From contig NZ_KQ130453.1 in assembly GCF_001046635.1 (NCBI RefSeq), positions 625,001-689,000 on the forward strand: a stretch of DNA of 64,000 bases, written 5' to 3'. Positions 39,968 to 59,493 of this stretch are shown here, piece by piece. Each line of letters begins with the position of its first letter. Position 1 is the first letter of the stretch. Below the pieces are notes generated by a model that saw nothing but the letters and a program-made list of their open reading frames with translations, searched no databases and was not told the DNA's origin. Origin of the DNA: Novosphingobium barchaimii LL02. Lineage in GTDB: Bacteria > Pseudomonadota > Alphaproteobacteria > Sphingomonadales > Sphingomonadaceae. A program made the translations under genes and the position numbers.

Positions 39968-42316
39968 CTATTTCGTCTTCGGCAAGGCAAAGGCGACTAG
40001 GTAGTCCCCCGGTGTCGTACCCATGTACATGTGCCCACCCGCTGCGATCACCACGTACTGGCGTCCGGTCTTGCGCGATATGTAGGTGATCGGTGTCGCC
40101 TGTCCGCCTGCAGGCAGACGGCCGCGCCACAACTCGCGGCCATTGGTGGTGTCAATGGCGCGCAGGTAGTTGTCGAGCGTAGCGCCGATGAAGGTCACGC
40201 CGCCTGCGGTATTGGCCGAACCGCCCAAGTTGAAGGCACCCGGCATCGCAATGCCCAGCGGCGCGGTGTCGGCGGTGGTGCCGAAAGTGCGGCTCCAGGC
40301 GATCTTGCCGGTGCTCAGGTCCACGGCGGCGATGTGTCCCCACGGCGGCGCTTCGCAAGGTATGCCCAACGGCGAAAGCATGGGCAGCAGGCTTACGCCG
40401 TAATTTGTGCCCATCTGCGGCAGGTACCCGGGGGCGTGGGAATCCTTCGCCAGTGCCGGCTTTTCAGTATCCGCGCCGTGGCGGAACAGGCGCACCTCCT
40501 GCGGGATCGCGGCGGAGTTCACGATCATCAGGTTTCGCGCCGGATCGATGCTGACGCTGCCCCAGTTGAGCACGCCGAACGTACCCGGCCACTGGATCAT
40601 GCCGCGCTCGGACGGCGGGGTGAAGTTGCCCGAGTAATCGAGCGAGCGGAAGCGGATGCGGCACCACATCTGGTCGAGCGGGGTCATGCCCCACATCGAT
40701 GCCTCGGTCAGCAGCGGCGGCGCGAACGAGGGGAAGCCCTTCACGTAAGGCTGCGTGGGAGAGTAGCGCTCACCCGGGATTTTCCCGCGCGGCACGGCGC
40801 GTTCCTCGATGCCGGTGAGCGATTTGCCGGTGCGGCGGTCGAGGATGAATATCTCGCCGCGCTTGGTCGGAGCGGCCAGGGCCGGCACCTTGCTGCCACC
40901 TGCGGTATAGTCGAACAGCACCGGCTGGGCAGGCATATCGTAGTCCCAGATATCGTGATGGACGGTCTGGAAGTGCCAGCGCACCCGGCCCGTTTTCACG
41001 TCCAGCGCGACGATGGAACTGGCATAGCGCTCCAGCATGGGGTTGCGGTGGGTGCCGACGTGGTCGGGCGTGGCGTTGCCGGTGGGCAGGTAGACGAGGC
41101 CCAGCGCAGGGTCGGCGCTGAACACGCTCCATGCATTGACCGAACCGCGTGTCCAGCCCTCGCCGGGGCCGGGCATCGGGGCGTCATCCGGGCGGCCGCT
41201 GTCCCAGGCCCAGAGCAGGCGGCCACTTTTTACGTCATAGGCGCGCACCACGCCCGATGGATCGTCCTTGGTGAAGTTGTCGCGCACGTAAGAGCCGAGG
41301 ATGGCGGTGTTGCCAACGATTACGGGCGGGGAGGACGTGTACGATCGCAGAGGATCGACAGCGCCCAGTCCGGCATCGAGGTTGACGGTGCCCATCTCGC
41401 CGAAGTCGCTGCAGGGGGCGCCGGTGGCGGCGTCGCTCGCCAGCATTCGGCCATCCACGGTCATGCTGATGATGCGCTTGGCGCAAAGGCCCGCCCCGGC
41501 GGGGTCTGCGTGGTAGGATACGCCCCGGCAGTTGAGCATCTGGGCATTGCCGATGTTCGTGTGCGGATCGCGCAGCCACACTTGCCTGCCGCTGTCGGCG
41601 TCGAGCGCGAAGACCTTGCCGGTAGGCGAACAGAAATAAACCTTGTCGTCCACCATGAGCGGCGTCGCCATGAACGAGATCGACTTGATTTCGGGGCGCT
41701 TGGCGCGGGTGTCGCCCGTCTGGAAGGACCACACCTGCTCCAGCTTCGCGGCATTCGCCGGGGTGATCTGCGCGGCGGAAGAATGGCGGGTGCCGGCGGA
41801 GTTGGCGCCGTAAGCGGTCCAGTCGGCGTTTGCGGGGTTGGCTGCCACCGCGACGGCGGGACCGCGTGTGGGGAGGATATCGAAGGTCGGGTTCATGGCG
41901 AATGCCGCGCCCAGCAGCAGCGCCGCCGCCGCGACCGCCGCGCCAAGGCCGTAGCGTGTCAGGGCATCGCCAGCCCGCGTCATCCGGCGGCGGAGACGCG
42001 GTACGGCCAAAAGGGCGCCGATCACGGCGGGCCCGGCGATGCGCGGCAGGAGTTGCCAGAACTGGGCGCCTACGTCCCAGCAGGACCATACGACAGTGCC
42101 CGCCAGCAAGCCCGCATAAAGCCACAAGCCGCGCCGGTCACCGCGCCACAGCAGCGCACCTGATGCGATGCACGCGAGGCCCGCCGCCAGATAATAGCCC
42201 GAGCCGCCGAGCATCAGCAGCTTCGCCCCGCCAAGCGCCAGCACCGCGCCGATGGCGAGCAGCACCGTTCCCGCCAGCCAGCGCGGCCAGCCGGATCCAA
42301 CCTTCTTGTCGTTCAT
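39968..42316 (-). CDS. Membrane-bound PQQ-dependent dehydrogenase (glucose/quinate/shikimate type)
   Basis: 782 aa from ATG 42316, with GAGGA upstream. About five membrane helices in the first 130 residues (WLAGTVLLAIGAVLALGG onward) are followed by the eight-bladed PQQ domain with repeated W-type motifs (DSGRQVWLRDPHTNIGN, VVRAYDVKSGRLLWAWDSG, HHDIWDYDMPAQPVLFD, ENTAGGVTF-like end). It oxidises a sugar or hydroxy acid in the periplasm and passes electrons to ubiquinone. Length and helices match Gcd and QuiA; the substrate is not clear. It lies after the E1/lipoyl operon in the same direction, separated by a repeat. Confidence 0.88.
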   Translation of the reverse strand: MNDKKVGSGWPRWLAGTVLLAIGAVLALGGAKLLMLGGSGYYLAAGLACIASGALLWRGDRRGLWLYAGLLAGTVVWSCWDVGAQFWQLLPRIAGPAVIGALLAVPRLRRRMTRAGDALTRYGLGAAVAAAALLLGAAFAMNPTFDILPTRGPAVAVAANPANADWTAYGANSAGTRHSSAAQITPANAAKLEQVWSFQTGDTRAKRPEIKSISFMATPLMVDDKVYFCSPTGKVFALDADSGRQVWLRDPHTNIGNAQMLNCRGVSYHADPAGAGLCAKRIISMTVDGRMLASDAATGAPCSDFGEMGTVNLDAGLGAVDPLRSYTSSPPVIVGNTAILGSYVRDNFTKDDPSGVVRAYDVKSGRLLWAWDSGRPDDAPMPGPGEGWTRGSVNAWSVFSADPALGLVYLPTGNATPDHVGTHRNPMLERYASSIVALDVKTGRVRWHFQTVHHDIWDYDMPAQPVLFDYTAGGSKVPALAAPTKRGEIFILDRRTGKSLTGIEERAVPRGKIPGERYSPTQPYVKGFPSFAPPLLTEASMWGMTPLDQMWCRIRFRSLDYSGNFTPPSERGMIQWPGTFGVLNWGSVSIDPARNLMIVNSAAIPQEVRLFRHGADTEKPALAKDSHAPGYLPQMGTNYGVSLLPMLSPLGIPCEAPPWGHIAAVDLSTGKIAWSRTFGTTADTAPLGIAMPGAFNLGGSANTAGGVTFIGATLDNYLRAIDTTNGRELWRGRLPAGGQATPITYISRKTGRQYVVIAAGGHMYMGTTPGDYLVAFALPKTK

Positions 42317-42373
42317 CCTCGCGTCCTCTCCCGGAACGGGGCCGTGCCATTCGGCACTTTTTTCGCTTTGGTC

Positions 42374-42459
42374 GTTCCTGCGCCGGCGGGAACCCATCTC
42401 CGGTGTCATCCTGTCGATGCCAGGCCGGGAAATGGATCCCCGCCTTCACAGCGATGACG
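42374..42459. repeat. Intergenic palindromic repeat (proteobacterial dispersed type)
   Basis: GTTCC and GGGAAC arms around GCGCCGGC at 42374-42393, followed by ATGGATCCCCGCCTTCAC and GATGACGG up to 42459. This resembles the dispersed intergenic palindromes (GGAAT-CCCGC-style) common in proteobacteria. It separates the lipoyl gene from the PQQ dehydrogenase gene. Only this copy was noticed. Confidence 0.4.
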
Positions 42460-42482: not shown

Positions 42483-42722
42483 CTAGGTCTCGATCACCGC
42501 GATCGCAGCGCGCACATCCACCGTGTCGCCGCTGTCGGCGAGGATGCGCAGCAGAGTGCCCGATACCGGCGCGGGGACTTCGACCGTGGTCTTGGCGGCT
42601 TCCACCTCGACGAGGTTTTCGCCTTCCTCGACACGTTCGCCCACTTCCTTGAGCCAGCGCACGATCTCGCCGTCCTGCATGCCCATGCCGTATTGCGGCA
42701 GGACCATAGTGAATTCAGCCAT
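42483..42722 (-). CDS. Free-standing lipoyl/biotinyl domain protein
   Basis: 79 aa, a single lipoyl domain: MVLPQYGMGMQDGEIVRWL, the turn EVEAAKTTVEV with Lys44 as the lipoylation site, and PVSGTLLRILADSGDTVDV. In 2-oxoacid and acetoin dehydrogenases this domain is fused to the E2 acyltransferase; here it stands alone, 12 bases after the E1-beta gene. It should carry the acyl or aldehyde group from the E1 subunits to an E2 encoded elsewhere. Confidence 0.88.
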   Translation of the reverse strand: MAEFTMVLPQYGMGMQDGEIVRWLKEVGERVEEGENLVEVEAAKTTVEVPAPVSGTLLRILADSGDTVDVRAAIAVIET

Positions 42723-42734
42723 GGTCCGTTCTCC

Positions 42735-43733
42735 TCAGGCGGGTTGGGGCTGCGGCGCAGGCGCACCTACCAGACGGCGGGCCGCATCCATTATCCGTTC
42801 CACCGAGGGGTAGAGCGGCTTTTCGATGTGCGGGCTGAACGGCAGGTGGGTATCGGGTGTGGTCACCCGCACCACCGGCGCACGCAGGGCCTCGAAGGCC
42901 TCCTCGGCGATGGTGGCGGCAATTTCACTGGCGGCGGAGCAGGTCTTGTGCGCAGGGTCGACGCAAATCGCCCTGCCTGTCTTGCGTACCGAGCGCAGGA
43001 TGATGTCGCGGTCGAGCGGCACCAAGGTGCGCGGGTCGACTACCTCCACAGAAATGCCTTCCGCTTTCAGCTTTTCCGCCGCTTTCAGCGCGATGTTCAC
43101 CGCGCCAGCGATGGCCACCACGGTCACGTCGGTGCCCTCACGCTTGACCTCGCCCTTGCCGAGCGGGATCACGAAGTCGAGGTCGTCGGGGACTTCGGAC
43201 TTGACCATCCAGCAGGTCGAATCCTCGAAAGACATCACCGGATCATCATCGCGGATCGCGGCTTTCAGCAGGCCCTTCATGTCATGCGCATTGGACGGCG
43301 CGATGATCTTCAGCCCGGGCATGTTCATGAACATGGAATAGGGCCGGTCGGAGTGCTGGGCGGCGTTGGAATTGCCGTAAAATAGGCACGACCGGATCAC
43401 GAGCGGCAGCTGCGCCTGTCCGCCGTAGATATAGCGTGACTTGGCGATGATGGAGCAGATCTGGTCCATCGCCGGGAACAGGAACGAGGAAATCGTCGCG
43501 TCCACGATGGGCCGCATCCCCACCATCGCCGCGCCGCCCGCCGCGCCGATGAAGCCGTTTTCCGAAATAGGCGTGTCACGTACGCGCTCCTCGCCGAAGC
43601 GTTCGACGAACCCGGTGGTGGTTCCGAAGACGTTGCAGCGAATGTCCTCGCCCATGATGAAGACCTTGGAATCGCGATCCATTTCCTCGGCCTGCGCCTG
43701 ATAGATGGCTTCCAGGTAAGTGATCTTGGCCAT
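42735..43733 (-). CDS. Thiamine-diphosphate dehydrogenase E1 subunit beta (acetoin/2-oxoacid type)
   Basis: 332 aa from ATG 43733, preceded by AAGGAG. ITYLEAIYQAQAEEMDRD, VFIMGEDIRCNVFGTTTG and PISENGFIGAAGGAAMVGMR, then PYSMFMNMPGLKIIAPSNA and VEVVDPRTLVPLDRDII, are the E1-beta blocks, including the Glu that activates ThDP. It forms a heterotetramer with the E1-alpha encoded 17 bases upstream. The C terminus APAPQPQPA is a short unusual extension. Confidence 0.93.
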   Translation of the reverse strand: MAKITYLEAIYQAQAEEMDRDSKVFIMGEDIRCNVFGTTTGFVERFGEERVRDTPISENGFIGAAGGAAMVGMRPIVDATISSFLFPAMDQICSIIAKSRYIYGGQAQLPLVIRSCLFYGNSNAAQHSDRPYSMFMNMPGLKIIAPSNAHDMKGLLKAAIRDDDPVMSFEDSTCWMVKSEVPDDLDFVIPLGKGEVKREGTDVTVVAIAGAVNIALKAAEKLKAEGISVEVVDPRTLVPLDRDIILRSVRKTGRAICVDPAHKTCSAASEIAATIAEEAFEALRAPVVRVTTPDTHLPFSPHIEKPLYPSVERIMDAARRLVGAPAPQPQPA

Positions 43734-43750
43734 GTTTTCCGGCTCCTTCT

Positions 43751-44755
43751 TCAGGCGTGTGCACGTACATCGTCGGGGATCGGCAGGCGATCGACGAAGA
43801 CGTGGTCGAAGGCCTCTTCGAAGGCCGGGTATGCGCTTTCGCGGGCGAAGTTCAGGGCATCGGCGACTTCCTCTGCCACCTGAACGTCGATCGCATCGAG
43901 ATCGGAACCGGAAATGCCGTCCTCGACCAGCCGGGCACGATAGAGGACGATGGGGTCGCGCGCCAGCCACTCGTCATGTTCCGGGCCGCGCGGGGTGAGA
44001 TCGCGGCCCATGTTCACGGCGTGGTCGGCGTAGCGATAGGTCTTGGTCTCGATCAGCGTGGGGCCTTTGCCGGCGCGGGCGCGGTCGACGGCCTCGCGCA
44101 CGGCGGCTTCCACGGCGTCCACGTCCTGCCCGTCGACGATGACGCCGGGGATGCCGTAACCGTGAGCCCGGTCGGCGACATGGGCGCCCGCGACGCCCGC
44201 AGCGGTCGGTGTCGACATACCGAAGCGGTTGTTTTCGCACACGAAGATCGCCGGCAGTTTCCACACGGCGGCAAGGTTCATGCCTTCATGGATCGCACCT
44301 TCGCTTGAAGCCCCGTCCCCGAAGAAGCACAGCGCCACGCGGTCCAACCCCTGCAGCTTGGCGCCAAGCGCCGCGCCTGCCGTGACCGGGCCGCCCGAGC
44401 CGACGATGCTGGTTTCCCCCAGGCTGCCCATCGAAAAGTCCGACAGGTGCATCGACCCGCCCTTCCCTTTGCAAATGCCGGTCACCTTGCCGAGCAGTTC
44501 CGCCATCAGCGGGCGCAGCTTCGCGCCCTTGGCGATCGGGTGGCCGTGACTGCGGTGGGTGCCGACCATATAGTCGTCGTCGCGCAGGGCCATACAGGCA
44601 CCCACGCCCGATGCTTCCATGCCGGCGTATGTATGCAGCGCGCCGGGGATTTCGCCCGCCGCATGGATGGTTTCAGCGCGGGTTTCGAACTGGCGGATGC
44701 GTTGCATGCGCCGGTACTTTTCAATCCTGCGGTCGTTGTCGCGACTAGCGCTCAT
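43751..44755 (-). CDS. Thiamine-diphosphate dehydrogenase E1 subunit alpha (acetoin/2-oxoacid type)
   Basis: 334 aa from ATG 44755, with AGAGGA seven bases upstream. MVGTHRSHGHPIAKGAKL and KGKGGSMHLSDFSMG precede the ThDP-binding motif from GDGASSEGAIHEGMN to CENN (146-176). RYADHAVNMGRDL is the regulatory-loop region. Compared with pyruvate dehydrogenases, the short length is closer to acetoin-type AcoA. With E1-beta it would decarboxylate or cleave a 2-oxo or hydroxyketone substrate and load the lipoyl protein. Confidence 0.93.
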   Translation of the reverse strand: MSASRDNDRRIEKYRRMQRIRQFETRAETIHAAGEIPGALHTYAGMEASGVGACMALRDDDYMVGTHRSHGHPIAKGAKLRPLMAELLGKVTGICKGKGGSMHLSDFSMGSLGETSIVGSGGPVTAGAALGAKLQGLDRVALCFFGDGASSEGAIHEGMNLAAVWKLPAIFVCENNRFGMSTPTAAGVAGAHVADRAHGYGIPGVIVDGQDVDAVEAAVREAVDRARAGKGPTLIETKTYRYADHAVNMGRDLTPRGPEHDEWLARDPIVLYRARLVEDGISGSDLDAIDVQVAEEVADALNFARESAYPAFEEAFDHVFVDRLPIPDDVRAHA

Positions 44756-44768
44756 GACAGATCCTCTC

Positions 44769-46070
44769 TCAGTGGACGGGTGCGGGCTGGGGAGCGTCGA
44801 CGGCCTCGAACAGTTCGAGCGGGGCCGCGTACATCGGTTCGGGAGCGCCGGCGGTGATCGCGTAGACGTTCTCCATATGGCAAGGGCCAAGCTTCGCGCC
44901 GAAGTAGAGACTGTCGAGCGAGATCAGCATGTTCTCCTCCATCACGAAACCTTCCTTGACCCCGGCAAGGCCAGCGGCGGGGAAGGCCAGCGGGATTTCC
45001 AGTGGCATCAGGCCGATGCCGTGGGCGACCACCAGCAGCTTCTCGGGCGTGGCGACGCCGTGGGCCTTGAGATGCTCGTACCCGATCGCCGGCAGGCTGG
45101 CGGTCGAGACGCCGGGCCGCAGAGCGTCGACCATCTTGAGGAAGGCATCGCGCAGGATGTCGTGCTGGCGGCGATATTCCGGGCTGGCCTTGCCGACCAC
45201 GGCGGTCCGATTGATGTCGACCCAGAAGCCGTCATGGATGCCCTGGGTTTCAAGGATCACGATGTCGCCGCTGCGAAGCGAACGGTTACCCCGGGTGCGG
45301 AACAGGTCGGGGATGAACTCGTCCGCCTCATAGGCACCGCCGAACAGCATGGCGCCTTCGTCCACCGGGATCACTTCGTGGCGGACCATGAAGTCGCAGA
45401 TCCGCGCCTGCACGTCGTTCCAGTCCGCGCCTTCGTGGAGCAGCGATCCGGCATGGGCGATGATCCGGTCCGCCAGTTTGCCCAGCTTGCGGTAGCGCGC
45501 CAGTTCGCCGGGCGTCTTGACCACGCGCACGCGCATCATGAAATCCAGCACGTCGCTGTATTGGTGAGGAACGGTGCCCGCGATCCGCGCCGAGACGCGG
45601 TGTTCATCGAAGCCGACACGCCCCCCCGCAAGGCCGTGATCCGCCAGCGCCGAGGCGATTGCCGCCGTGATGTCGGGCTGGCAGGTTCCGGCGATGGCAC
45701 CCACCATGCCTCCCGCATCCTCGGCCAGTTGGCCGCCGTTGCGATCCGGGTCGATATAGCGACTGACTTCGCAGAAGTTGAGCATGTCGAACGTGCGCAG
45801 TTCGCCGAAGGTACAGGCGTCCCCGTCCTTGTTCAGCACAGCGACGAGGCCCAGGTTCGCCTCGGGGATCACCAGCGTCAGCGGTTTGGCCGGATCGGCA
45901 TAGACGATGGCCGCCGCCATCGGCTCCATCTGCTGCCAGCGCTCGAGGATCGAGTGATAACCCGCCACATAGCGCACGTCGTGCGGGTGGCTGAGGACCA
46001 CCGCGTCCAGCCCCTCCGCCCCCATCATCGACTGCAGCCGGTCAGCTCTCGGGTTCGAAGGTGAGGTCAT
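44769..46070 (-). CDS. M24-fold protein (creatinase/aminopeptidase P-like) with altered metal site
   Basis: 433 aa with an N-terminal creatinase-like domain (DAVVLSHPHDVRYVAGYHS) and a C-terminal pita-bread domain (GDIVILETQGIHDGFWVD onward). Aligning by eye with aminopeptidase P, the five ligand positions read Glu274, Asp285, His350, Asp386, Glu400 (usual: Asp, Asp, His, Glu, Glu), and the catalytic His of HGxGxxxHE is Leu357 (HGIGLMPLE). This makes peptidase activity doubtful. The fold also hosts non-peptidases such as creatinase and DddP lyase, so a lyase or hydrolase role in the pathway is plausible. Overlaps the cupin gene by 4 bases. Confidence 0.8.
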   Translation of the reverse strand: MTSPSNPRADRLQSMMGAEGLDAVVLSHPHDVRYVAGYHSILERWQQMEPMAAAIVYADPAKPLTLVIPEANLGLVAVLNKDGDACTFGELRTFDMLNFCEVSRYIDPDRNGGQLAEDAGGMVGAIAGTCQPDITAAIASALADHGLAGGRVGFDEHRVSARIAGTVPHQYSDVLDFMMRVRVVKTPGELARYRKLGKLADRIIAHAGSLLHEGADWNDVQARICDFMVRHEVIPVDEGAMLFGGAYEADEFIPDLFRTRGNRSLRSGDIVILETQGIHDGFWVDINRTAVVGKASPEYRRQHDILRDAFLKMVDALRPGVSTASLPAIGYEHLKAHGVATPEKLLVVAHGIGLMPLEIPLAFPAAGLAGVKEGFVMEENMLISLDSLYFGAKLGPCHMENVYAITAGAPEPMYAAPLELFEAVDAPQPAPVH

Positions 46071-46525
46071 GCCGCCTCCTCCAGCCCCTCGTTGGCGACG
46101 TTGGAGACGACTTCGCCCTTCGCCACATCGCGCAGGAATTCGTGATTGAGGATGAAGCGCACTTCGCCCGCATCGTCGGTGAAGGCGACGGCGCCGTGGC
46201 CCATGAACAGATATTCGGTCACTTCCTCACAGCGCGCTTCGCTGTGCCGCGATCCGATCGGCTCGTAGCCATAGGTGCCGGCGGGCGCCGAGCCGACATC
46301 GTAGATCAGCTCGCCCTTGGTGACGAAATATTGGCCGTGGCCCAAGTGCCAGTGAGGGGCGAAGGTGGCGCCCGGCTCCATGTGGACCCATAGCACCCAG
46401 TCGCCGGTTTCCTCGCTGTAGCGCAGCAGCCGGATCGTAGTGCCGACACCCAGCGCCACTTCGTGGCAGTCGTTGATGTTGACGATAAGATCGCCCAGTT
46501 TTCCGGGTTCGTGTTGCTCGGTCAT
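46067..46525 (-). CDS. Cupin protein resembling 2,4'-dihydroxyacetophenone dioxygenases
   Basis: 152 aa from ATG 46525. PGATFAPHWHLGHGQYFVTKG gives the first cupin motif with candidate metal ligands His-x-His and a third His; GTYGYEPIGSRHSEAR gives the second. FMGHGAVAFTDDAGEVRFILN resembles the C-terminal part of the 2,4'-dihydroxyacetophenone dioxygenase family, which cleaves a C-C bond in hydroxy-aryl-ketones. Located between an SDR and the M24 gene in one operon. The dioxygenase role is inferred from resemblance. Confidence 0.68.
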   Translation of the reverse strand: MTEQHEPGKLGDLIVNINDCHEVALGVGTTIRLLRYSEETGDWVLWVHMEPGATFAPHWHLGHGQYFVTKGELIYDVGSAPAGTYGYEPIGSRHSEARCEEVTEYLFMGHGAVAFTDDAGEVRFILNHEFLRDVAKGEVVSNVANEGLEEAA

Positions 46526-46556
46526 GGTTTTGTTTCCTCTCGCAAAACTCGAAAAA

Positions 46557-47318
46557 TCACATCGTGGCAGTGAGGCCCTCGTCGGCAGGGATGACGGCGC
46601 CGTGGACACAGCTCGATTTGTCATCGAGCAGGAAGCAAACCAGCTGCGCGATCTGCACCGGCTCCATGAAGAACTTGCGGCGCGGGCTGGGATGGCCGTC
46701 CATCAGCGCGGCGATGGCCTGTTCGCCCTCGGGCGTGCACAAGTTGGCGGTGAGCGGCGTCGCCACCGCGCCGGGGCACACGCAGTTGATGCGGATACCC
46801 TTGGGGCCAAGTTCCGCCGCCAGCGTGCGCGAAAGCATCGCCACGGCTGCTTTCGAGGCGCTGTAGGCACTGTCGCCCGCACGCCCCGCCACGCCGCTGA
46901 CCGAACCGATGAAGACGATGGCGCCGCCGCCTGTCTCGATCATCGCCGGGAGCACGGCCTGCGTGACGTAGAAGGTGCCTTTAAGGTTCACGTCGATGTG
47001 CCGGTCGAACAGCGAAAGCGGGCTTTCTGGCACCGGGTTGGGCGCCCACATGGCCGCGTTATTGACCAGCAGCGTGACCGGCCCAAGTGCGGCCTCGATC
47101 CCGCGCACGGCCTGCGCAACGGCCTCGGCATCCGAAATGTCGACGTGGACCGCGTGGGCGAGCGCGCCGCTGGCGACTTCCTTGTCGAGGTCGGCCCGGG
47201 GGGCGTCGGACAGCACTGCGACCCTGGCGCCCGCCTCGCGCAGCAGCTTCGAGACGGCGGCGCCGATGCCGCTGGTGCCCCCGGTGACGAGCGCGACTTT
47301 TCCTGCAAGATTGCTCAT
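46557..47318 (-). CDS. Short-chain dehydrogenase/reductase
   Basis: 253 aa, classical SDR: cofactor motif TGGTSGIG, NNAAMW, catalytic YSASK, and INCVCPGAVATPLT. An acidic or Ser residue after the second strand (VAVLSDAPRADLDKE) leaves the NAD versus NADP preference open. The final DEGLTATM matches the usual SDR end. Overlaps the following SDR gene by 4 bases. Probably oxidises an alcohol formed in the pathway. Confidence 0.9.
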   Translation of the reverse strand: MSNLAGKVALVTGGTSGIGAAVSKLLREAGARVAVLSDAPRADLDKEVASGALAHAVHVDISDAEAVAQAVRGIEAALGPVTLLVNNAAMWAPNPVPESPLSLFDRHIDVNLKGTFYVTQAVLPAMIETGGGAIVFIGSVSGVAGRAGDSAYSASKAAVAMLSRTLAAELGPKGIRINCVCPGAVATPLTANLCTPEGEQAIAALMDGHPSPRRKFFMEPVQIAQLVCFLLDDKSSCVHGAVIPADEGLTATM

Positions 47319-48097
47319 TGCGCGGTGAAACCTCCGTCGACGATCAGTTCCGATCCGTGCATGTAACCCGCCTCGTCAGAGGCAAGGAACCGCACCGTCT
47401 TGGCGATGTCGATGGGGTCGGCCATGCGCCCGATGGGGTGGGCCGGGGCGAGACCGGCGGCGGCTTCCTCGACACTGGCAGCGAAACCGCTGTCGACGAT
47501 GCGCTGGAGGATGTGATCGACCATGCCGGTCTTCACGCCGCTGGGGTGCACGGAATTGACCCGCACCTTGTAGCTCAGCGCCGAGAATTCCATCGCGCAG
47601 GCCTTCACGAACAGCGCCACTGCGCCCTTCGATGCGCAGTACCCAGTGTGCAGCGGCGAACCGATCTTGCCCGCTACCGAAGATATCACCACGATCGAGG
47701 CGCCATGCGGAAGATCCTCGCCCGAACGCTTCATCAGGCCGATCGCTGATTTGGTGCCCAGGAAAACGCCGTCGACGTTGACGGCCATCTGTTTGCGCCA
47801 CTGCTCAAGCGTGGTGTTTTCCATCTTCTCCACCACGACGATGCCGGCGACATGGATCAGCGTGTCGAGCCGTCCATAACGTGCTTCTATCGCCGCGATA
47901 ACGGCCTGCCACGATGCCTCGTCAGTGACGTCGAGCTGGTAGTAGCCCCAGTCGGGCTGAGCCGCGTTCCATTCTCCTGGCAGATCTGCGCCCACCACCA
48001 CCGCCCCGGCCTCGGCCAGCGAGCGGGCGATTTCACTGCCGATGCCGCCGGTGCAGCCGGTGACAAGGGCGATGCGTCCTTCAAGCGAGGCGATCAT
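47315..48097 (-). CDS. Short-chain dehydrogenase/reductase
   Basis: 260 aa: TGCTGGIG for the cofactor, VVGADLP with an Asp that favours NAD(H), catalytic YCASK preceded by SSVAGKIGS, and SVHPSGVKTGM. Similar in size to the next SDR but clearly distinct, so each may act on a different step or stereocentre. Overlaps both the ABM gene upstream and the SDR gene downstream by 4 bases. Confidence 0.9.
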   Translation of the reverse strand: MIASLEGRIALVTGCTGGIGSEIARSLAEAGAVVVGADLPGEWNAAQPDWGYYQLDVTDEASWQAVIAAIEARYGRLDTLIHVAGIVVVEKMENTTLEQWRKQMAVNVDGVFLGTKSAIGLMKRSGEDLPHGASIVVISSVAGKIGSPLHTGYCASKGAVALFVKACAMEFSALSYKVRVNSVHPSGVKTGMVDHILQRIVDSGFAASVEEAAAGLAPAHPIGRMADPIDIAKTVRFLASDEAGYMHGSELIVDGGFTAQ

Positions 48098-48411
48098 GCG
48101 GGAACTCCTGTGATGGCCGCTTCGCCAAGGTGGTCGAAGCAGCGGATATCCGGATCACCGTCGAGGCAGGCGTATCCATCGGCGGACATGGCGACGTGAT
48201 AGGGGCGCAGCGCGTGCTCCTCCTTAGCCTGCATCGTGGTGAAGAATTCGGTGAACACAAAAGCGTTGGCATCGTCCTGCGATTGCAGGACCTGGAACAG
48301 CAGGGTATCCGGCTCGTTCGCGCGGACATCCTTTTGGAGCTGCGTCGTCAACTCTATGAAACGCTGCGTCTTGTCCGGTTTCGTGCGGACATGCATGATG
48401 ACTGCAATCAC
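48094..48411 (-). CDS. ABM-domain protein (putative small monooxygenase)
   Basis: 105 aa with the dimeric alpha-beta barrel pattern: MIAVIMHVRTKPDKTQRFIEL, EPDTLLFQVLQSQDDANAFV, EEHALRPYHVAM. ABM proteins include cofactor-free quinone-forming monooxygenases (YgiN, ActVA-Orf6), but many are uncharacterised. First gene of the eight-gene minus-strand operon ending with the lipoyl protein. Two further ABM genes lie at 58.8-59.4 kb. Confidence 0.82.
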   Translation of the reverse strand: MIAVIMHVRTKPDKTQRFIELTTQLQKDVRANEPDTLLFQVLQSQDDANAFVFTEFFTTMQAKEEHALRPYHVAMSADGYACLDGDPDIRCFDHLGEAAITGVPA

Positions 48412-48428: not shown

Positions 48429-49916
48429 ATGTGGGGGGAAATGCTGGCCGAGGCGGCGCAGGCCGCGCAGGGACCGGACCCTGCCTCCGCGCAGCCGCTG
48501 GTCGAACGCCTGCTCACCGCGAAACCCGGCGACGGGGATGCGCTGACACTGGCGGGGATCGTGGCCCAGCGTACCGGGCGCATGGAGGATGCACTGGCTG
48601 CCTTTCGCGCCGCGCGCGATGCCGACCCCCTCGACGCCGGGCGGCACCAGAACCTGGCCGTCGCGCTGAAGAACCACGGCGCCTATGACGAAGCCCTTGC
48701 CGCCTTCACTGCCGCGCTGGACCTGCGGCCCGGCCATGACGGGACGCTGGCGAACCTCGGCTCGTGCCTGATCGCGGCCGGGCGCTGCGAGGAGGCCATC
48801 GAGGTGCTGGCCGCGGCAGGTGACAAGCCCGAAGCGCTGAACAACATGGGCGTGGCGCTGGCCCGCCTGGGCCGTCACGATGAAGCGGCGGCGCGCTACA
48901 ACCGCTCGCTGGCCTTGCGTCCCGGCCATCTCGAAACCGCGCTCAACCTGATCGATGCACTGGCGGCCAGCGGCAAACGGGACGAGGCGGAAAATCTCGT
49001 GCGTCAGGTGCTCAAAGCACAGCCGCGCAATATGCGCGCCGCGAACCAGCTGGGTCTGATGCTGGAAAGTGCCGGGGATTTCGTCGGTGCCGCTGCGGTG
49101 CTGCGCAGCGTTTTCGATCCCGCCGCGCCCAATCATGCGCTTGGCGTCAATCTGGCGCGCACGCTGATCCGGGCCGGCAATCCCGAGGACTCGCTGCGGG
49201 TCAGCGGCGCGCTCGTCAAGACACAGCCCAGCGTGACCACGCCGCTCGCGCTGGCGCTGGCGGCTTACGAGCATCTGGGCCAGACCCGTGAGCTGGGCGG
49301 ACTGATGGCTTTGGACCGCTTCGTGTCGGTGCATGATATCACCGCCGCGCCGGGCTTTGCCGATATGGCGCAGTTCAACGCGGCGCTGGTTGAAGAATTG
49401 CGCGCGCATCCCTCGCTGACCTTCGAGCCGGAGGGCCTCGTCACCAGGCAGGGCCGCCAGAGCGGCGATCTTGCCGATGCCGAAACTCCGGCACTGCGCG
49501 GCCTGGTCAGCATCACCACGATGCACCTCGCGGAGACTCTCGCCGGGTTCGCGGCCCAGCCCGCCGATCATCCATTCCTGCGCGCCCTGCCCGCGAACTG
49601 GAGCCTGACCCTTTGGGGCACGGTCCTCCAGCCCGGCGGCGAAGTGGGCGCCCACATTCATGCGCCGAACTGGCTCTCGGGCGTCTACTATCCCGAGTTT
49701 GCAGGCGAGGACGGCGCTTTCGCGATAGGCGTGCTTCCCGGCGAACTGGGCGGCGGCGGCACCCCTGTCGTCAAGAACCCGCGCGCCGGGCGCATGATCG
49801 TGTTTCCCTCCTACCTGTGGCACGGAACGCTGCCGTTCGGGGGAGAGAAAGAACGCATCAGCTTCGCCTTCGACCTCGTGCCCGCAGGCGTGGGCCAACC
49901 GCACAAGCTGCGCTGA
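48429..49916 (+). CDS. TPR protein with C-terminal 2OG-Fe(II) oxygenase-like domain
   Basis: 495 aa. Roughly seven TPR-like helical repeats (AAFTAALDLRPGHDGTLANLG, NMGVALARLGRHDEAAARYN) occupy the first 270 residues. The C-terminal domain has HIHAPNWLSGVYYPEF and PRAGRMIVFPSYLWHGTLPF, then GEKERISFAFDL, giving His ligands and an Arg as in the 2OG-FeII_Oxy_5 group. It may hydroxylate a protein or metabolite. It diverges from the ABM gene, with only 17 bases between start codons, so its promoter must lie inside that gene. Confidence 0.82.
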   Translation: MWGEMLAEAAQAAQGPDPASAQPLVERLLTAKPGDGDALTLAGIVAQRTGRMEDALAAFRAARDADPLDAGRHQNLAVALKNHGAYDEALAAFTAALDLRPGHDGTLANLGSCLIAAGRCEEAIEVLAAAGDKPEALNNMGVALARLGRHDEAAARYNRSLALRPGHLETALNLIDALAASGKRDEAENLVRQVLKAQPRNMRAANQLGLMLESAGDFVGAAAVLRSVFDPAAPNHALGVNLARTLIRAGNPEDSLRVSGALVKTQPSVTTPLALALAAYEHLGQTRELGGLMALDRFVSVHDITAAPGFADMAQFNAALVEELRAHPSLTFEPEGLVTRQGRQSGDLADAETPALRGLVSITTMHLAETLAGFAAQPADHPFLRALPANWSLTLWGTVLQPGGEVGAHIHAPNWLSGVYYPEFAGEDGAFAIGVLPGELGGGGTPVVKNPRAGRMIVFPSYLWHGTLPFGGEKERISFAFDLVPAGVGQPHKLR

Positions 49917-49958: not shown

Positions 49959-52289
49959 TCAGAACTTAGCCGAGCCTTCGATGCCGAAACTGCGCGGCGG
50001 GGCGTAATTGGTGAAGTTGAACAGTCCCGCCACCGAGTTGGCCGAGACGCGGTAGACCTTGTCCAGCAGGTTTCGCCCGAAGATGGCCACGCGGTAGCGT
50101 TCGTCGGGATCGGTCCAGCCGATGCTCGCTCCCACCAGGGTGCGCGCCTGCCCCTGCGAATAGTCGGCGTTGAGCGTGGTGGATTCGAACTGCGCCTGGT
50201 AGTTGATGTCGGCGTTTAGCGAGACCGTGCCGAAGTCCGCAGGCGGGAATTCGTAATGCGCGTTGGCCCCGGCGGTCCACTTGGGCGCGCCGCGCAGTTT
50301 CAGATAGGACGCATCCTCGTTGACGCCGTCACCGTCGACGTCGGTGCTGAAGTTGATGTACTTGGCTTTCTGGTAACCCACCGAAGCGCCAAGCGTCAGG
50401 CCGGGGACCGGGGCGGAGGATATCTCCAGCTCGATGCCCTTCACTTCCGCCTTGCCGGCGTTGGTAGTGCGGGTTTCCTGTCCGGGCAGGCCCGTGATCG
50501 GGTCTACGAAAGGCACTACGGCGTCGCGCTGCAGATCGTTGTACTTCACATAGAACGCCGCGACGTTCACGCGCAGCTTGCGGTCGGCCGTTTCGGTCTT
50601 GAAGCCCAGTTCGAAGCTGTCTGCCGTCTCCTCGCGGAATGGCAGCGCCGACGTGGCGGACATCGCCTGTTCGTTGTAGCCGCCCGACTTGTAGCCTTGG
50701 CTATACGTGAAGTAGTTGTTGATGCCCGATGCGATTTCCCAGCGGTAGCCGGCGCGGATGGTCGGCTTGCTGAACTTGGCGCTGTCGCTGTATTCGGGCC
50801 AGAAGCCGGTGGCGATGGTCGAACGGCGGACTTGCGGGCGGACCGAGAAGTCCTTGCTCTCCTTGGTATAGCGCGCACCCAGGAACACAGAGAACGGATC
50901 GGCGAGCTTGTACTCTGCCTCGCCGAACACTGCATAGCTGTCGACCTTGTAGTTCGCGGTGGACTGGTTCGGATCGGTCAGCGCGGTGGGATCGCCCAGG
51001 AAGCGCAGGAAGCCAAGAAAGCTGGTCGCATTGGCATCCAGCGTCTGCCCCCAGTACATGGCGCCGGCGGTGAACTTGATGCTGTCCGAGAAGTCGGAGC
51101 TGAACCGGGCTTCCGCGCTGTATTGCTTACGGGTGTCCTCGCGGGTGGAGACGAACAGGTAGGCGTTCTCTCCGGTATAGTCGGATGGCAGTTTCGAGCG
51201 AACCCGGCGCCAGCCGCCGACCACAGTGATCGTGCCGGTGCCCTCCATGGTATGCTCGCCGCGCAGGAACACGCCGTCCACGTCGACCCGGTGGCCATCG
51301 AGCGTGCCCACGCAGGTCGGCGCGCTGGAAGAGCCTTCGCACAGGGTCGTGCCGGTCTTGAACGGGCTCTGGCCGGTGGTCTGGATGCCGGGGAAGCCGA
51401 CCACGTCGATCAGGAAGCCGGGGGGCGTCTCGTTGACCGACGGCGGGCTGTCGCCCCGGTCGCGCAGCAGTTCGTAGGTCAGCATCAGGTTGGTGTCGTC
51501 GGTCGGTTCCCACAATAGCTTGGCGCGGCCGCTGAAGTAGCGGCTGCCGCCCCAGCGCTGCCCGCGTCCAGGCACGCCTTGGAAACCATCGACGGAATTG
51601 TTCTTGGTCAGGCGGTAGTACCCATCGCTTTCCTGAAACGAACCGGCGGCGCGGAAGTAGAGGTTTTCCGACAAGGGAATGTTGATCGAGGCCTTCACGT
51701 CCTTGGTGTTGAAGCTGGAGTAGCCGAGGCGCACTTCGGCACTGAAGCCCGGCTCCGGCTTCTTGGTGATGACATTGACGACGCCGCCCACGGTGTTCTT
51801 GCCGAACAGGGTGCCTTGCGGTCCGCGCAGGACTTCGATGCGCTCCACGTCGAACAGGTCGAACAGCTGGGTCTGGACGTGAGCCAGCACGAAATCGTCG
51901 ACGACAACGCCGACGGCCGGCTCGAAGGTCAGTATGATGTCGCCGGTGGACTGGCCGCGAATGCCGATCGCGGCGGCGTTGAAGCCCGGCACGTTGGTGA
52001 TGACAACATTGGGAACGTCGCCCGCCAAAGCGCGGATATCGTTGGCGAACTTGTTCTCGATCGCCGCCTCGGTAAAGGCTGAAACCGCTACCGGCGTGTC
52101 CTGGATGGATTCCGAAATACGCCTCGCGGTGACGACGATGTCCTCAAGACCGGTCGACTGGCCGGACTGGCTAGTGCCCTGCGGCTGCGGCGCGGGCGCC
52201 GTCTGGGCCAGGACAGTGGTGCTGGCGCTCGTCAGCAGCCCCGTGGCGAGCAATTTGCAGACGCAATTCAGGTGTGACTTGCCGATCAT
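49959..52289 (-). CDS. TonB-dependent outer-membrane receptor
   Basis: 776 aa with a signal peptide ending near TTVLAQ. DIVVTARRISESIQDTPVAV is the sphingomonad plug start, followed by VERIEVLRGPQGTLFGKNTV and GGVVNVITKKPE. The barrel ends with YAPPRSFGIEGSAKF. It would import a scarce or bulky substrate across the outer membrane using TonB energy. A CATTCATG operator-like motif is 116 bases upstream, between this gene and the divergent TetR gene, so it is likely controlled by that regulator. Confidence 0.94.
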   Translation of the reverse strand: MIGKSHLNCVCKLLATGLLTSASTTVLAQTAPAPQPQGTSQSGQSTGLEDIVVTARRISESIQDTPVAVSAFTEAAIENKFANDIRALAGDVPNVVITNVPGFNAAAIGIRGQSTGDIILTFEPAVGVVVDDFVLAHVQTQLFDLFDVERIEVLRGPQGTLFGKNTVGGVVNVITKKPEPGFSAEVRLGYSSFNTKDVKASINIPLSENLYFRAAGSFQESDGYYRLTKNNSVDGFQGVPGRGQRWGGSRYFSGRAKLLWEPTDDTNLMLTYELLRDRGDSPPSVNETPPGFLIDVVGFPGIQTTGQSPFKTGTTLCEGSSSAPTCVGTLDGHRVDVDGVFLRGEHTMEGTGTITVVGGWRRVRSKLPSDYTGENAYLFVSTREDTRKQYSAEARFSSDFSDSIKFTAGAMYWGQTLDANATSFLGFLRFLGDPTALTDPNQSTANYKVDSYAVFGEAEYKLADPFSVFLGARYTKESKDFSVRPQVRRSTIATGFWPEYSDSAKFSKPTIRAGYRWEIASGINNYFTYSQGYKSGGYNEQAMSATSALPFREETADSFELGFKTETADRKLRVNVAAFYVKYNDLQRDAVVPFVDPITGLPGQETRTTNAGKAEVKGIELEISSAPVPGLTLGASVGYQKAKYINFSTDVDGDGVNEDASYLKLRGAPKWTAGANAHYEFPPADFGTVSLNADINYQAQFESTTLNADYSQGQARTLVGASIGWTDPDERYRVAIFGRNLLDKVYRVSANSVAGLFNFTNYAPPRSFGIEGSAKF

Positions 52290-52404: not shown

Positions 52405-52422
52405 AATCATTCATGTATGATT
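52405..52422. promoter_or_regulatory. Operator-like motif between TetR and TonB receptor genes
   Basis: AATCATTCATGTATGATT is an imperfect palindrome centred on CATG, inside an AT-rich divergent promoter region. Fifteen of its bases recur before the second TonB receptor (58565-58579), and a related sequence is before the ABM pair (58671-58690). A likely binding site for the adjacent TetR protein. Confidence 0.55.
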
Positions 52423-52464
52423 TATTTTACTGCATTGCAGCGGGAGCAGAAGGAGGGGATTGTT

Positions 52465-53232
52465 TTGGAAACCGGCGGCGTTCAAGAATTTCGTAAGTAT
52501 AGCGGGGGAAGCGCAACACGTGGGGGACTTGCTGCAGTGCAGGAGATGACCGGCGAAAAAACGCCAGCGAGTCGGCGCCGCTACACCAGTCCGGCAATGA
52601 CGGAGCGCCGCGCGCGGATCGTTGACGCTGCCCACCGCATCCTGGGCGAAGGCGGCGTCGCCGCGCTGACCATTCGCAGGCTGTCCGACGAGGCCGGGGT
52701 AGCCCAGCGCACGCTCTACCGCCTGTTCGGCGACAAGGACGGCGTCATCAGCGCGACGGTGGTCGACCGCATGGTCGAAGTGCGCGGACACATCGCGCGG
52801 CGCGACCACATCTACACGCTGCCGATGGTGTTTCGCGAACTAGACTGGATGGTCAGCGAACTCGACCGCGACAGCCTTTACGCGCGGGTGGTGATCGATT
52901 TCGTCTTCGCGCCGGAAGTCCGCACGCTGGAAGTGAACGAGCTAACCTCAGTGGCGCGCAGCCGCTTCGCCGGGTGGCTGGAACACCAGCGCGGCAAAGG
53001 CAGCGTGCGCGACGATCTCGATAACGAGGCGCTGGTCGACACGCATGTGATGCACGAATTCCTGGTCTACCGGCGCTGGTCGCTGGGGCAGTGCGGATCG
53101 GACCAATGCCGCCTCGAACTGCACGCCTGCTTCCTTCAGAGCGCCTCGCTGGTGCTGACGGAGGAGCTTCGCGAAACCTATCTGGCAAAGCTGGTCACGC
53201 TGCAGAAACGGATCAGGCGAATGCGCAAATAG
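52465..53232 (+). CDS. TetR-family transcriptional regulator
   Basis: About 255 aa from TTG 52465, preferred because AGGAGGGG stands six bases upstream; ATG 52417 and ATG 52546 are in-frame alternatives. The N-terminal HTH is RARIVDAAHRILGEGGVAA followed by LSDEAGVAQRTLYRLFGDK. The C-terminal ligand-binding region is all-helical and unlike well-known subgroups. Divergent from the TonB receptor and followed after 37 bases by the SnoaL-like gene. Probably the local repressor of the catabolic island. Confidence 0.88.
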   Translation: METGGVQEFRKYSGGSATRGGLAAVQEMTGEKTPASRRRYTSPAMTERRARIVDAAHRILGEGGVAALTIRRLSDEAGVAQRTLYRLFGDKDGVISATVVDRMVEVRGHIARRDHIYTLPMVFRELDWMVSELDRDSLYARVVIDFVFAPEVRTLEVNELTSVARSRFAGWLEHQRGKGSVRDDLDNEALVDTHVMHEFLVYRRWSLGQCGSDQCRLELHACFLQSASLVLTEELRETYLAKLVTLQKRIRRMRK

Positions 53233-53777: not shown

Positions 53778-55901
53778 TTACTCTCCGGTTTTGTGTGCCG
53801 AGCCGAAATGCATTTCCGGTTTGCCACTGCGTAGTACGTATGCCCTTGAGCGGATATACTGGCGCAATGCTTCGATCTGGTCCGGTTTGAACTCACCGAA
53901 CGCGGGCATTCCGTTCGGCACCAGCGCGCCGTCCTTGACGACTTGCGCGAACACTTCGGAATCGTGCGGGATCGCCGAAGTGCGCAGGTCCGGCGCGGTG
54001 CCGCCGGCGACGACGCCGGTGCCGTGGCAAACGGCGCAGCGACCGCCGAATATCCCCTCCCCGCGCGCGGCCAAAGCCGCGTCCGGCTTGTAGTCGGCAT
54101 CCTCGAAGGCAACCGCTTTGTATGGAATGCGCGGCGGTAGTGTCTGTTTGCCGCCGATCGCGAACGTGAGCACCCGGCGGGCCTGGGTTCGGTAATCGAT
54201 GCCGTATTTCTCGAACATTGGGCCGAACAGGCCGACGCTGGTGCCGATTCCGGCGATCACCGTGACGTATTGCTTGCCGTTCACCCGGTAGGTGATCGGC
54301 GGCGCCACCACGCCGGCACGCGCGTCGAAGTTCCACAGCCGCTTGCCGTCCTGTGCGTTGTAGGCGGAGAAGCCGCCGTCGGGCCGTCCCTGAAACACCA
54401 GATTGCCGCCCGTGGCCATGATGCCCCCATTGCCGTGGGTGGGCATTGGCAGTTTCCAGCGCGCCTTCTGCGCCACCGGGTCCCAGGCAATCAGCCAGCC
54501 GGTGACTTTGCTGCCGCCCGCGTCGATGGAGTAGCCCACACCCGGAGACAGGCCCATCCCGCCCGCGAACTTGAAGTTCTCGCGCGTGATCCCCGTATCG
54601 TCGAAGCGCACTTGGAGGTCGATGGCGGGAATATAGGTCAGGCCGGTCTTGGGGCTGAAAGCCATCGGCATCCAGCTATGCGCGCCCAGCGGGGTGGGGC
54701 GGAACGTGGTCTTGCCGCTTTCATAGCGCACGCCGGGGTTTTCGACCGGGCGCCCGGTGGCCAGGTCGATCTTCTTGGCCCAGGTCACCTGCACGAAGGG
54801 TTCGGCAGAGATCAGCTTGCCGTCCTTGCGGTCGATCACATAGTAGAAACCGTTTTTCGGCGCCGTGGTCACCACCTGACGCGGCTTGCCGTCGATGGTC
54901 AGGTCGGCCAGCTGCATGTCCATCGCGGCGTTGAAGTCCCAGCTTTCGCCAGGATTGATCTGGTAATGCCACTTGTACTTGCCGGTCTTCGCATCGAGCG
55001 CGACGATCGAGCATACGAATAGGTTGTCGCCCTTGCCCAAGCTGCGGATCTTGTGGTTCCACGGCGCGCCATTGCCGGTGCCAATCAGGATCTGGTCGTT
55101 CGCCTTGTCATACGTGATCGAATTCCATGCTGAACCGCCGCCGCCGTACTTCCACCAATTGCCGTGCCAGGTCTTGGCGGCCATCTCCTGCGCCTCGTCC
55201 TCGAAGCCCTTCGCCGGGTCGCCGGGGACGGTGTAGAATTTCCAGAGGAATTTGCCGGTATCCGCATCGAAGGCGGTGACGAAGCCGCGCACCGCGCTTT
55301 CATCGGATCCCGCATTGCCGATGATGACCTTGCCGTCGAATACCCGCGGCGGGCCGGAGATGAACATCGGCGCGCCGTCGTCCAGTGTTTGCACAGTCCA
55401 GACAGGAGCGCCGGTCTTCTCGTCCAGCGCCACGAGGCGGCCGTCCTGCGTGGCGGTGATGACCTTGTGGTTCCAGTAGGCTACGCCCCGGCTGCCCCAG
55501 CCCTGCCGCAGACGCACACCCGAAGCCTCGGGTGCCTTGGGGTCATGCTCCCACCGGACCTTGCCGGTGGCGACGTCGATCGCGCGCACCACCGAATAGC
55601 CGGTGGCGAGGTAGACGCTGCCGCCCACCTCGATCGGGCCGGTGGCCGGGTTGCCGGCGGGCAGGTCCACTGACCAGACGAGACCCAGATCCTTGACGTT
55701 GCCTTCGTTGATCTGCTCCAGCGGGCTGTAATGCTGCTCGCCGTAAGTGCGCCCGAAGGCGGGCCAGTCGTCGCCGCTGCTGGCATCGTCCAACTGCTGC
55801 AGCCATGCCTCAGGCGCCTGCTTGCCGGCCAGGGCCTCCTGATCGGCAGAACCACAGGCCGCAAGGCTCCACACCATCGCGCCAAGCATAAACGGCCGCA
55901 T
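53778..55901 (-). CDS. Quinohemoprotein (PQQ + cytochrome c) alcohol dehydrogenase, lipoprotein
   Basis: 707 aa from ATG 55901 (GTG 55904 is possible). MLGAMVWSLAACGS is a lipoprotein signal. The PQQ propeller shows DWPAFGRTYGEQHYSPLEQIN, WHGNWWKYGGGGSAWNSI and ESWDFNAAMDM. The Asp of WDF is the probable catalytic base, and Asn two residues later means the lanthanide-type D-x-D pair is absent. The C-terminal cytochrome c domain has CAVCH (622-626) and NGMPAF for the axial Met. It would oxidise alcohols in the periplasm, tethered to a membrane. Lies 109 bases after the second TonB receptor. Confidence 0.92.
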   Translation of the reverse strand: MRPFMLGAMVWSLAACGSADQEALAGKQAPEAWLQQLDDASSGDDWPAFGRTYGEQHYSPLEQINEGNVKDLGLVWSVDLPAGNPATGPIEVGGSVYLATGYSVVRAIDVATGKVRWEHDPKAPEASGVRLRQGWGSRGVAYWNHKVITATQDGRLVALDEKTGAPVWTVQTLDDGAPMFISGPPRVFDGKVIIGNAGSDESAVRGFVTAFDADTGKFLWKFYTVPGDPAKGFEDEAQEMAAKTWHGNWWKYGGGGSAWNSITYDKANDQILIGTGNGAPWNHKIRSLGKGDNLFVCSIVALDAKTGKYKWHYQINPGESWDFNAAMDMQLADLTIDGKPRQVVTTAPKNGFYYVIDRKDGKLISAEPFVQVTWAKKIDLATGRPVENPGVRYESGKTTFRPTPLGAHSWMPMAFSPKTGLTYIPAIDLQVRFDDTGITRENFKFAGGMGLSPGVGYSIDAGGSKVTGWLIAWDPVAQKARWKLPMPTHGNGGIMATGGNLVFQGRPDGGFSAYNAQDGKRLWNFDARAGVVAPPITYRVNGKQYVTVIAGIGTSVGLFGPMFEKYGIDYRTQARRVLTFAIGGKQTLPPRIPYKAVAFEDADYKPDAALAARGEGIFGGRCAVCHGTGVVAGGTAPDLRTSAIPHDSEVFAQVVKDGALVPNGMPAFGEFKPDQIEALRQYIRSRAYVLRSGKPEMHFGSAHKTGE

Positions 55902-55964
55902 CACTTTCAAATCGCCTTTCACCAACACGCGGTGCACCTCTTGCTCGAAAATGGGGGGTGAGGC

Positions 55965-56001: not shown

Positions 56002-56010
56002 CGCGGCGCC

Positions 56011-59423: not shown

Positions 59424-59444
59424 GCGGGTGTCTTAGCGCTTAAT

Positions 59445-59487: not shown

Positions 59488-59493
59488 ATCATA

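Follow-up and report, generated by a model that had tools for sequence, protein, structure and literature searches.

A conserved sphingomonad operon with a Dke1-like cupin, an altered M24 protein and a free lipoyl protein that looks like an undescribed route for the breakdown of ketone-like compounds

The acetylacetone dioxygenase Dke1 is described as cleaving many beta-diketones with O2 (PMC4019311). Two other described groups of enzymes are of interest here, namely acetoin dehydrogenase with the related 2-oxoacid dehydrogenase complexes, and the M24B family of creatinase- and prolidase-fold proteins. The present analysis concerns 64,000 nt of contig NZ_KQ130453.1 of Novosphingobium barchaimii LL02 (this whole stretch is hereafter called the window), in which an operon at positions 42483-48411 of the minus strand brings together a Dke1-like cupin, an M24 protein, an E1 pair and a free-standing lipoyl protein. 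Judging from the genes it contains, the set looks like an undescribed route for the breakdown of ketone-like compounds in soil and marine sphingomonads. An earlier note on this DNA, made from the letters alone, knew of no described pathway with this set, and a literature search covering PMC papers found none either.

All eight genes lie on the minus strand in the order ABM, SDR1, SDR2, cupin, M24, E1-alpha, E1-beta and lipoyl, where SDR stands for short-chain dehydrogenase/reductase. The Pfam scan assigned to them ABM, two SDR, Cupin_7, Creatinase_N and M24, E1_dh, Transket_pyr and Transketolase_C, and Biotin_lipoyl domains, in agreement with the content and place given in the earlier note. 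The first gene encodes an ABM-domain protein of 105 aa (48094..48411; PF03992, 53.9 bits). It is followed by SDR oxidoreductase 1 of 260 aa (47315..48097; PF13561/PF00106), which reached the cut-off of none of the 25 NCBIfam families listed out of 228, and SDR oxidoreductase 2 of 253 aa (46557..47318; PF00106/PF13561). Next come the Dke1-like cupin, a putative dioxygenase of about 152 aa (46067..46525; PF12973), the M24 creatinase/prolidase-fold protein of 433 aa (44769..46070; PF00557, PF01321), and E1-alpha, a predicted component of a thiamine diphosphate (ThDP)-dependent dehydrogenase (43751..44755, 334 aa; PF00676, 266 bits). E1-beta of about 332 aa (42735..43733; PF02779 and PF02780) and the free-standing lipoyl carrier protein of 79 aa (42483..42722; PF00364, 66.9 bits) complete the set. 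The starts of the cupin, E1-alpha and E1-beta are internal ATG codons chosen to fit the relatives, longer open reading frames being present as well. Four-base overlaps join ABM to SDR1, SDR1 to SDR2 and the cupin to M24, and the remaining gaps measure 12-31 bases; this spacing, with the order kept in relatives, is consistent with a single transcription unit, as had been proposed.

When the M24 protein was searched against 84,980 species genomes, 34 loci were obtained, and a close copy is also carried by five plasmid records, four of which were fetched. The sphingomonad set comprises 25 loci (L001-L021 and L035-L038; L034, a match of only 22 residues, was left out), of which L002 and L037 come from two strains of one species, so that the 25 are not all independent. 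The search for conserved gene order, which the earlier note had recommended, found all eight genes in order in 13 of the 25 loci and one SDR instead of two, with the remaining order kept, in nine more, so that the order with one or two SDRs is retained in 22. Locus L020 is rearranged and has two cupins, and L009 is cut by its contig end. The M24, E1-alpha, E1-beta and lipoyl genes are contiguous in 24 of the 25 loci; an ABM orthologue was detected in 22, none being found in L009 and L016 (short contigs) nor in L020. Identity to the M24 protein of the window goes down to 68% among the aligned sphingomonad rows, and the cupin, M24, E1 and lipoyl genes travel together over many genera. The gene order is conserved far beyond chance. 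The M24 gene was found in only four of 296 sampled genomes of the order (E <= 1e-60), and plasmid copies of the locus occur in Croceicoccus, Sphingobium and Novosphingobium; this rarity, together with the plasmid copies, indicates an accessory catabolic locus.

As was found by the profile search, the closest solved relatives of the cupin are 2o1q (E 4.4e-13) and Dke1 (3bal, E 1.9e-11), and phmmer also matched it to 3bal, the acetylacetone-cleaving enzyme, with E 1.7e-10. Residues H60, H62, H96 and E90 (numbered by the first alignment row, which begins two residues ahead of the likely Met) are invariant in all 18 rows and are aligned to His62, His64, His104 and Glu98 of 3bal. The equivalent of Tyr70 is kept in 14 of the 18 rows and replaced by Phe in three Halieaceae rows and in the second copy of L020. 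The likeness to 2,4'-dihydroxyacetophenone dioxygenase (DAD) suggested in the earlier note is not the best description: the cupin is nearer to Dke1, and no chain bearing the DAD name appears in the PDB listings, which do not support membership of that group. We take it that the PDB collection contains such a chain.

E1-alpha keeps the ThDP motif GDG..ENN, and both E1-beta domains are present (PF00676 in the former, PF02779 and PF02780 in the latter). A tree built by maximum likelihood from 59 E1-alpha rows unites all 25 rows of the operon (the window plus 24 loci) in one clade with support 100/99, joined at 100/95 by a sister clade of Rubrobacter, Shinella, Novosphingobium KACC 22771 and Mesorhizobium, three of which possess a free lipoyl gene. 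The acetoin E1s of Paracoccus and Mycetohabitans (L043 and L044), which have acoX/acoC-type genes beside them, fall elsewhere, and most other E1s of the same genomes are also placed outside the two clades; the paralogues L055, L056 and L075 are drawn beside them with weak support (85/29) and on a long branch. No acoX or acoC match was found within 7 kb of E1 in the 25 operon rows. An alignment of 25 rows, 11 of them from the 29 rows of the two clades, shows DH or EH in these clades where other E1s have the GH of a GH..SD or GH..GD loop, and [GS]E[ST].I[VT]G where most of the others have a GAN.IVG-type stretch.

The lipoyl protein is free-standing, with an EAAK lysine motif, in all 24 sphingomonad loci that carry it, and its gene lies directly downstream of E1-beta in each of them. 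Neither an acyltransferase nor a subunit-binding domain is present in the 79-aa protein; among the NCBIfam models it best matches the N-terminal part of acetoin-dehydrogenase E2, and in L017 its last third departs, as if frame-shifted. An E2 gene beside E1, which according to the earlier note would make this an ordinary 2-oxoacid dehydrogenase, was looked for in two ways: no PF00198 match occurs among the operon proteins scanned, and tblastn with the E2 catalytic domain of the Halieaceae locus L027 found none within 7 kb of E1 in the 25 operon rows, some contigs being short. A search for E3 (dihydrolipoyl dehydrogenase), made among the window proteins scanned around the operon and not in the relatives, found none. 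The lack of E2 and E3, which had been called unusual, is thus confirmed, but the arrangement is uncommon yet recurring. An E1-alpha, E1-beta and free lipoyl series is present in Rubrobacter, Shinella and Novosphingobium KACC 22771 and in at least five further genomes (G331, G517, G558, G615 and G635) of a sample of 385 genomes of the class, for which only matches with E <= 1e-12 were taken and the short frame of G666 was left out. This indicates that the missing E2 is real but not unique.

E2 catalytic-domain matches number 2-7 in each of nine genomes and 4-7 in the seven sphingomonads among them; in G009, the E2 within the M24 locus itself may be one of those counted. A 263-aa frame in G005 was considered as a separate sphingomonad E2 gene and rejected, since the frame runs into the contig end; the other E2 frames of this search measure at least 396 aa, except for a 175-aa frame with two partial matches in G006. 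In Shinella (L040), a bare E2 catalytic domain of 225 aa is encoded at 12949-13626 (PF00198), with glpD and an aldolase gene between it and the free lipoyl gene; the presence of this E2 gene suggests a split complex. A second free lipoyl protein was noticed in Novosphingobium sp. 18050 (L107, 4041-4256); its gene lies downstream of one for a LuxC-type acyl-CoA reductase, and the 8.5 kb fetched there contains no E1 match.

The predicted fold of the M24 protein has a mean pLDDT of 78, with values below 50 for residues 348-372 around the active-site His, and its Foldseek matches include prolidase, creatinase, ectoine hydrolase and DddP. In the profile alignment to prolidases, the ligand positions Glu274, Asp285, His350, Asp386 and Glu400 are invariant in all 23 rows and depart from the Asp, Asp, His, Glu, Glu set of M24 peptidases; the HExP His of peptidases is Leu357 in every row. 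The exchanged metal ligands and the lost His make a peptidase role unlikely, and it probably acts on the skeleton of the substrate, as a hydrolase or lyase that is not a peptidase.

Eleven of the 34 M24 loci belong to Halieaceae, with M24 proteins 39-43% identical to that of the window among the aligned Halieaceae rows. On four contigs (L024, L027, L029 and L032) the neighbourhood of the M24 gene includes E1-alpha, E1-beta, a TonB receptor gene and either an E2 or the lipoyl part of one; in the remaining seven loci the contig stops short of the E1 position. L032 has just an M24 fragment at its contig end, and L033, from the same assembly, a nearly complete M24. The cupin is present in three of the four loci. 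All four carry one or two pyrroloquinoline quinone (PQQ) dehydrogenases, one of membrane type being found in L024, L027 and L032 but not in L029, which is cut there. Full-length E2s of 387-395 aa are encoded in L027, L029 and L032, and the scanned one of L027 has lipoyl, E3-binding and catalytic domains. In L024 (2831-3328) the E2 is cut down to the lipoyl and binding region (165 aa) and is possibly an intermediate towards the free lipoyl protein; it comes from one assembly and is perhaps an artefact. The tree places the four Halieaceae E1 rows elsewhere. A topology that unites them with the operon rows in one clade, and with it the orthology of the two E1s, was rejected (delta lnL 80, p-AU 0.0002), the L027 E1-alpha, which reads frame-shifted near its end and has a long branch, being kept in both the tree and the topology test. 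Since the two lineages do not group, the same chemistry was recruited twice, each time with a different E1 lineage. Outside these two groups, the M24 gene of Pseudonocardia (L030, 52% identity) lies beside acyl-CoA ligase and flavin monooxygenase genes.

To the gene content and order, their conservation, the separate E1 clade, the altered M24 ligands and the conserved iron site of the cupin, an accessory catabolic pathway can be fitted, which we hold with somewhat less than even confidence. The substrate would be taken up through a TonB receptor, and PQQ dehydrogenases with one or both SDRs may convert its secondary alcohol groups to a beta-dicarbonyl. Homology and the conserved three-His site suggest that the Dke1-like Fe(II) cupin would then use O2 to split the beta-dicarbonyl, giving a carboxylate and a 2-oxo compound. 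The E1 pair, with its intact motifs, would cleave this 2-oxo compound (a 2-oxo acid, alpha-diketone or acyloin) on ThDP, with the free lipoyl protein as acceptor of the acyl group. Transfer to CoA and reoxidation of the lipoyl group would fall to an E2 and an E3 whose genes lie elsewhere; E2 domains do occur elsewhere in the genomes tested, the search having been confined to E2. The M24 protein may act on the substrate skeleton as the hydrolase or lyase considered above. The earlier note had proposed side-chain oxidation of a ketone or diketone to an acyl-CoA, and the gene set is compatible with oxidation and cleavage to an acyl thioester, its label for the cupin being corrected here.

Several observations weigh against such a pathway. 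The position of Dke1 Arg80 is occupied by Asp in 17 of the 18 cupin rows and that of Thr107 by Ala in all 18, so the substrate of the cupin may differ from that of Dke1. No cupin orthologue was found in L027 or its genome G009; Pseudonocardia L030 has no cupin match in the genome and no E1 within the surrounding 21 kb, and these two cases indicate that M24 does not always need the rest of the set. The metagenome contig L016 carries SDR-SDR-cupin-M24 with no E1 within the following 2.7 kb, and Mesorhizobium L041, the exception among the four sister rows, has a sister E1 with no lipoyl gene found beside it. The sister modules of Rubrobacter and Shinella sit among sugar genes, which would also fit a sugar or polyol substrate. 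E1-beta reaches 321.5 bits, just over the cut-off of 321 for the pyruvate dehydrogenase E1-beta subfamily PRK09212, and stays under that of PRK11892 (323.4 against 454). Lastly, the scheme assumes that a borrowed E2 can serve a free lipoyl domain to which no subunit-binding domain is attached.

The sugar genes lead to the main rival, in which the substrate is a polyol, cyclitol or deoxy-ketose, the E1/lipoyl pair cleaves an acyloin or vicinal dione as acetoin dehydrogenase does, and the cupin does something other than beta-diketone cleavage. Two sister E1 modules have glpD and sugar ABC transporter genes beside them, along with a glycerol kinase gene in one case and an aldolase gene in the other, and the PQQ enzyme flanking the operon belongs to the glucose/quinate/shikimate family. 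Moreover, two alphaproteobacterial genomes of 1.4 Mb (G558 and G635) encode SDR-M24-E1-alpha-E1-beta-free lipoyl-aldehyde dehydrogenase beside a KduI/IolB-type isomerase. The module there lies in a sugar- or inositol-like cluster and represents a second, distant case of M24 next to E1/lipoyl genes; in the corresponding stretches (L109, 2795-13194, and L108), sugar kinase and aldolase genes were recognised by eye, and no IolE/IolD-like gene was noticed in the same way. However, the M24 of these genomes is just 22-23% identical to that of the window and the E1-alpha about 36%. No sugar ABC transporter or sugar kinase occurs among the proteins scanned around the operon, where TonB receptors flank instead, and the Rieske oxygenase genes near the operon in seven loci suggest a hydrophobic ring substrate. 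We regard a sugar- or cyclitol-type substrate as unlikely.

An ordinary pyruvate, acetoin or branched-chain 2-oxoacid dehydrogenase, having its E2/E3 elsewhere and the cupin, SDRs and M24 as incidental neighbours, seems improbable. The domain make-up is standard, E1-beta lies at the cut-off of a pyruvate dehydrogenase subfamily, and E2 domains are present elsewhere in the genomes; but E1-alpha falls below both NCBIfam pyruvate dehydrogenase cut-offs (311.4 against 393.85 and 244.2 against 411.35 bits), its clade is apart from the two acoX/acoC loci and most E1s of the same genomes, and the joint travel of the cupin, M24, E1 and lipoyl genes over many genera does not suit incidental neighbours. 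It is very improbable that the lipoyl protein is a redox or biotin-type carrier instead of an acyl carrier for this E1: its gene directly follows E1-beta in all 24 loci, its best model is an acetoin-dehydrogenase E2, and its lysine context is EAAK, not the AMKM of biotin proteins, although some free lipoyl proteins do serve other purposes, such as LbpA in sulfur oxidation (PMC6067878).

Alongside the diketone-type pathway, a broader proposal can be made tentatively, as a possibility that we consider rather less likely than that pathway itself. SDR-M24-E1-alpha-E1-beta-free lipoyl may be a portable catabolic module assembled more than once, in which M24, as a non-peptidase enzyme, prepares or releases the substrate of ThDP/lipoyl cleavage and the lipoyl protein serves as a diffusible acyl carrier, like the glycine-cleavage H protein, and not as part of an E2 core. 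This proposal is based on the sphingomonad operon, the two small alphaproteobacterial genomes with the same order, and the Halieaceae with their separately recruited E1/E2.

The extent of eight genes given in the earlier note holds for the operon itself, but two neighbours go along with it. A TonB receptor gene lies on the same strand within 6.5 kb of M24 in 22 of the 25 sphingomonad loci, and a PQQ dehydrogenase gene follows the lipoyl gene in 18. In the window, the latter encodes a membrane-bound enzyme of the glucose/quinate/shikimate family (39968..42409, minus strand; TIGR03074, 937 bits against a cut-off of 832.65), which is likely part of the same pathway. In L011, L012, L014, L015, L018 and L021 the PQQ enzyme is just 40-43% identical to that of the window (best tblastn segment), which indicates that the flanking enzyme is not of the same type everywhere. 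TonB-dependent receptor 1 is encoded at 49959..52289 on the minus strand (PF00593, PF07715). It is followed upstream by a TetR-type regulator gene on the plus strand (52417..53232; PF00440), present in 19 of the 26 sequences clustered, and by a gene for a PQQ dehydrogenase with a cytochrome c domain (53778..56048, minus strand; PF01011, PF13442), present in nine of them. A SnoaL-like gene and a second TonB receptor gene were also detected upstream of the operon in the window.

Between receptor 1 and the operon, a gene for a protein with tetratricopeptide repeats and a 2-oxoglutarate (2OG)-Fe(II) oxygenase-like domain (48429..49916, plus strand; PF13759 and TPR families) lies antisense. In 20 of 21 loci the start codons of this gene and of ABM are 14-38 bp apart, the distance in L017 being -1, so the operon promoter must be sought within the 2OG gene or ahead of the receptor. 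Possibly the operon is noncontiguous and runs from the TonB receptor through ABM, antisense across the 2OG gene. The terminator scan detected nothing terminator-like where the convergent genes end, and one weak minus-strand site inside the 2OG gene, at 49038-49024, which speaks mildly against a noncontiguous operon. Terminator-like sites were near chance level (7 found against 4.5 expected, sd 2.4), and the promoter and terminator scans together gave no more sites than about chance.

Other genes of the surroundings deserve mention. By clustering, one or two Rieske oxygenase alpha genes lie near the operon in the seven loci referred to above, including L003 (18047-19399, confirmed by Pfam), L007 (16630-19331) and L036 (9218-11925, confirmed by annotation). 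A separate set in the window, at 58850-63988, comprises the end of a gene for a phosphoenolpyruvate mutase-like lyase, a two-subunit aconitase-type hydratase, an arylmalonate decarboxylase/maleate isomerase-like protein, and a flavin adenine dinucleotide (FAD) monooxygenase, and resembles an alkylmaleate hydratase/lyase route. The aconitase pair and the decarboxylase-like and FAD genes are kept in the closest relative, G001, and the aconitase pair is found upstream of the receptor in L012 as well.

If the proposed pathway is correct, a 2-oxoacid-dehydrogenase-like system would work with a free lipoyl domain in place of an E2 core, there would be a function to look for in the M24 subfamily with exchanged metal ligands, and sphingomonads and Halieaceae would have a way to process diketone-type intermediates that arise from natural or industrial compounds.

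The locus may finally be set beside the described systems. Cluster G-II of Novosphingobium sp. MBES04 includes a 'DAD-like' dioxygenase gene induced by the lignin-derived phenylpropanone GHP (PMC10866074); it has four genes, the other three hypothetical, and in a comparison by gene order, not by sequence, the layout differs and the cluster was rejected as the same operon because its dioxygenase gene stands first. The modules of Rubrobacter indicoceani, Shinella and Novosphingobium sp. KACC 22771 plasmids share the E1 clade and are directly followed by a gene for a lipoyl protein of about 79-80 aa; unlike the operon, they showed no match to M24 or the Dke1-like cupin within the stretches fetched, and beside them lie either sugar/glycerol genes or genes for a flavin monooxygenase, SDRs and a hydrolase. 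With the M24B family (prolidase, creatinase, the ectoine hydrolase DoeA and the dimethylsulfoniopropionate lyase DddP), the M24 protein shares the fold and five ligand positions that are acidic or His, but the first Asp is replaced by Glu, the first Glu by Asp and the HExP His by Leu. Acetoin dehydrogenase (acoABCL, acoX) and the other 2-oxoacid dehydrogenase complexes have in common with the operon the E1 alpha/beta fold, the ThDP motif and the lipoyl domain, whereas here acoX, E2 and E3 are absent from the operon, the E1-alpha clade is separate and the loop is altered. Dke1 of Acinetobacter johnsonii is related to the cupin by sequence, with equivalents of the three His ligands and Glu98 common to both, and differs in the two residues exchanged here, Arg80 and Thr107; the cupin, for its part, sits in an operon with E1 and lipoyl genes.

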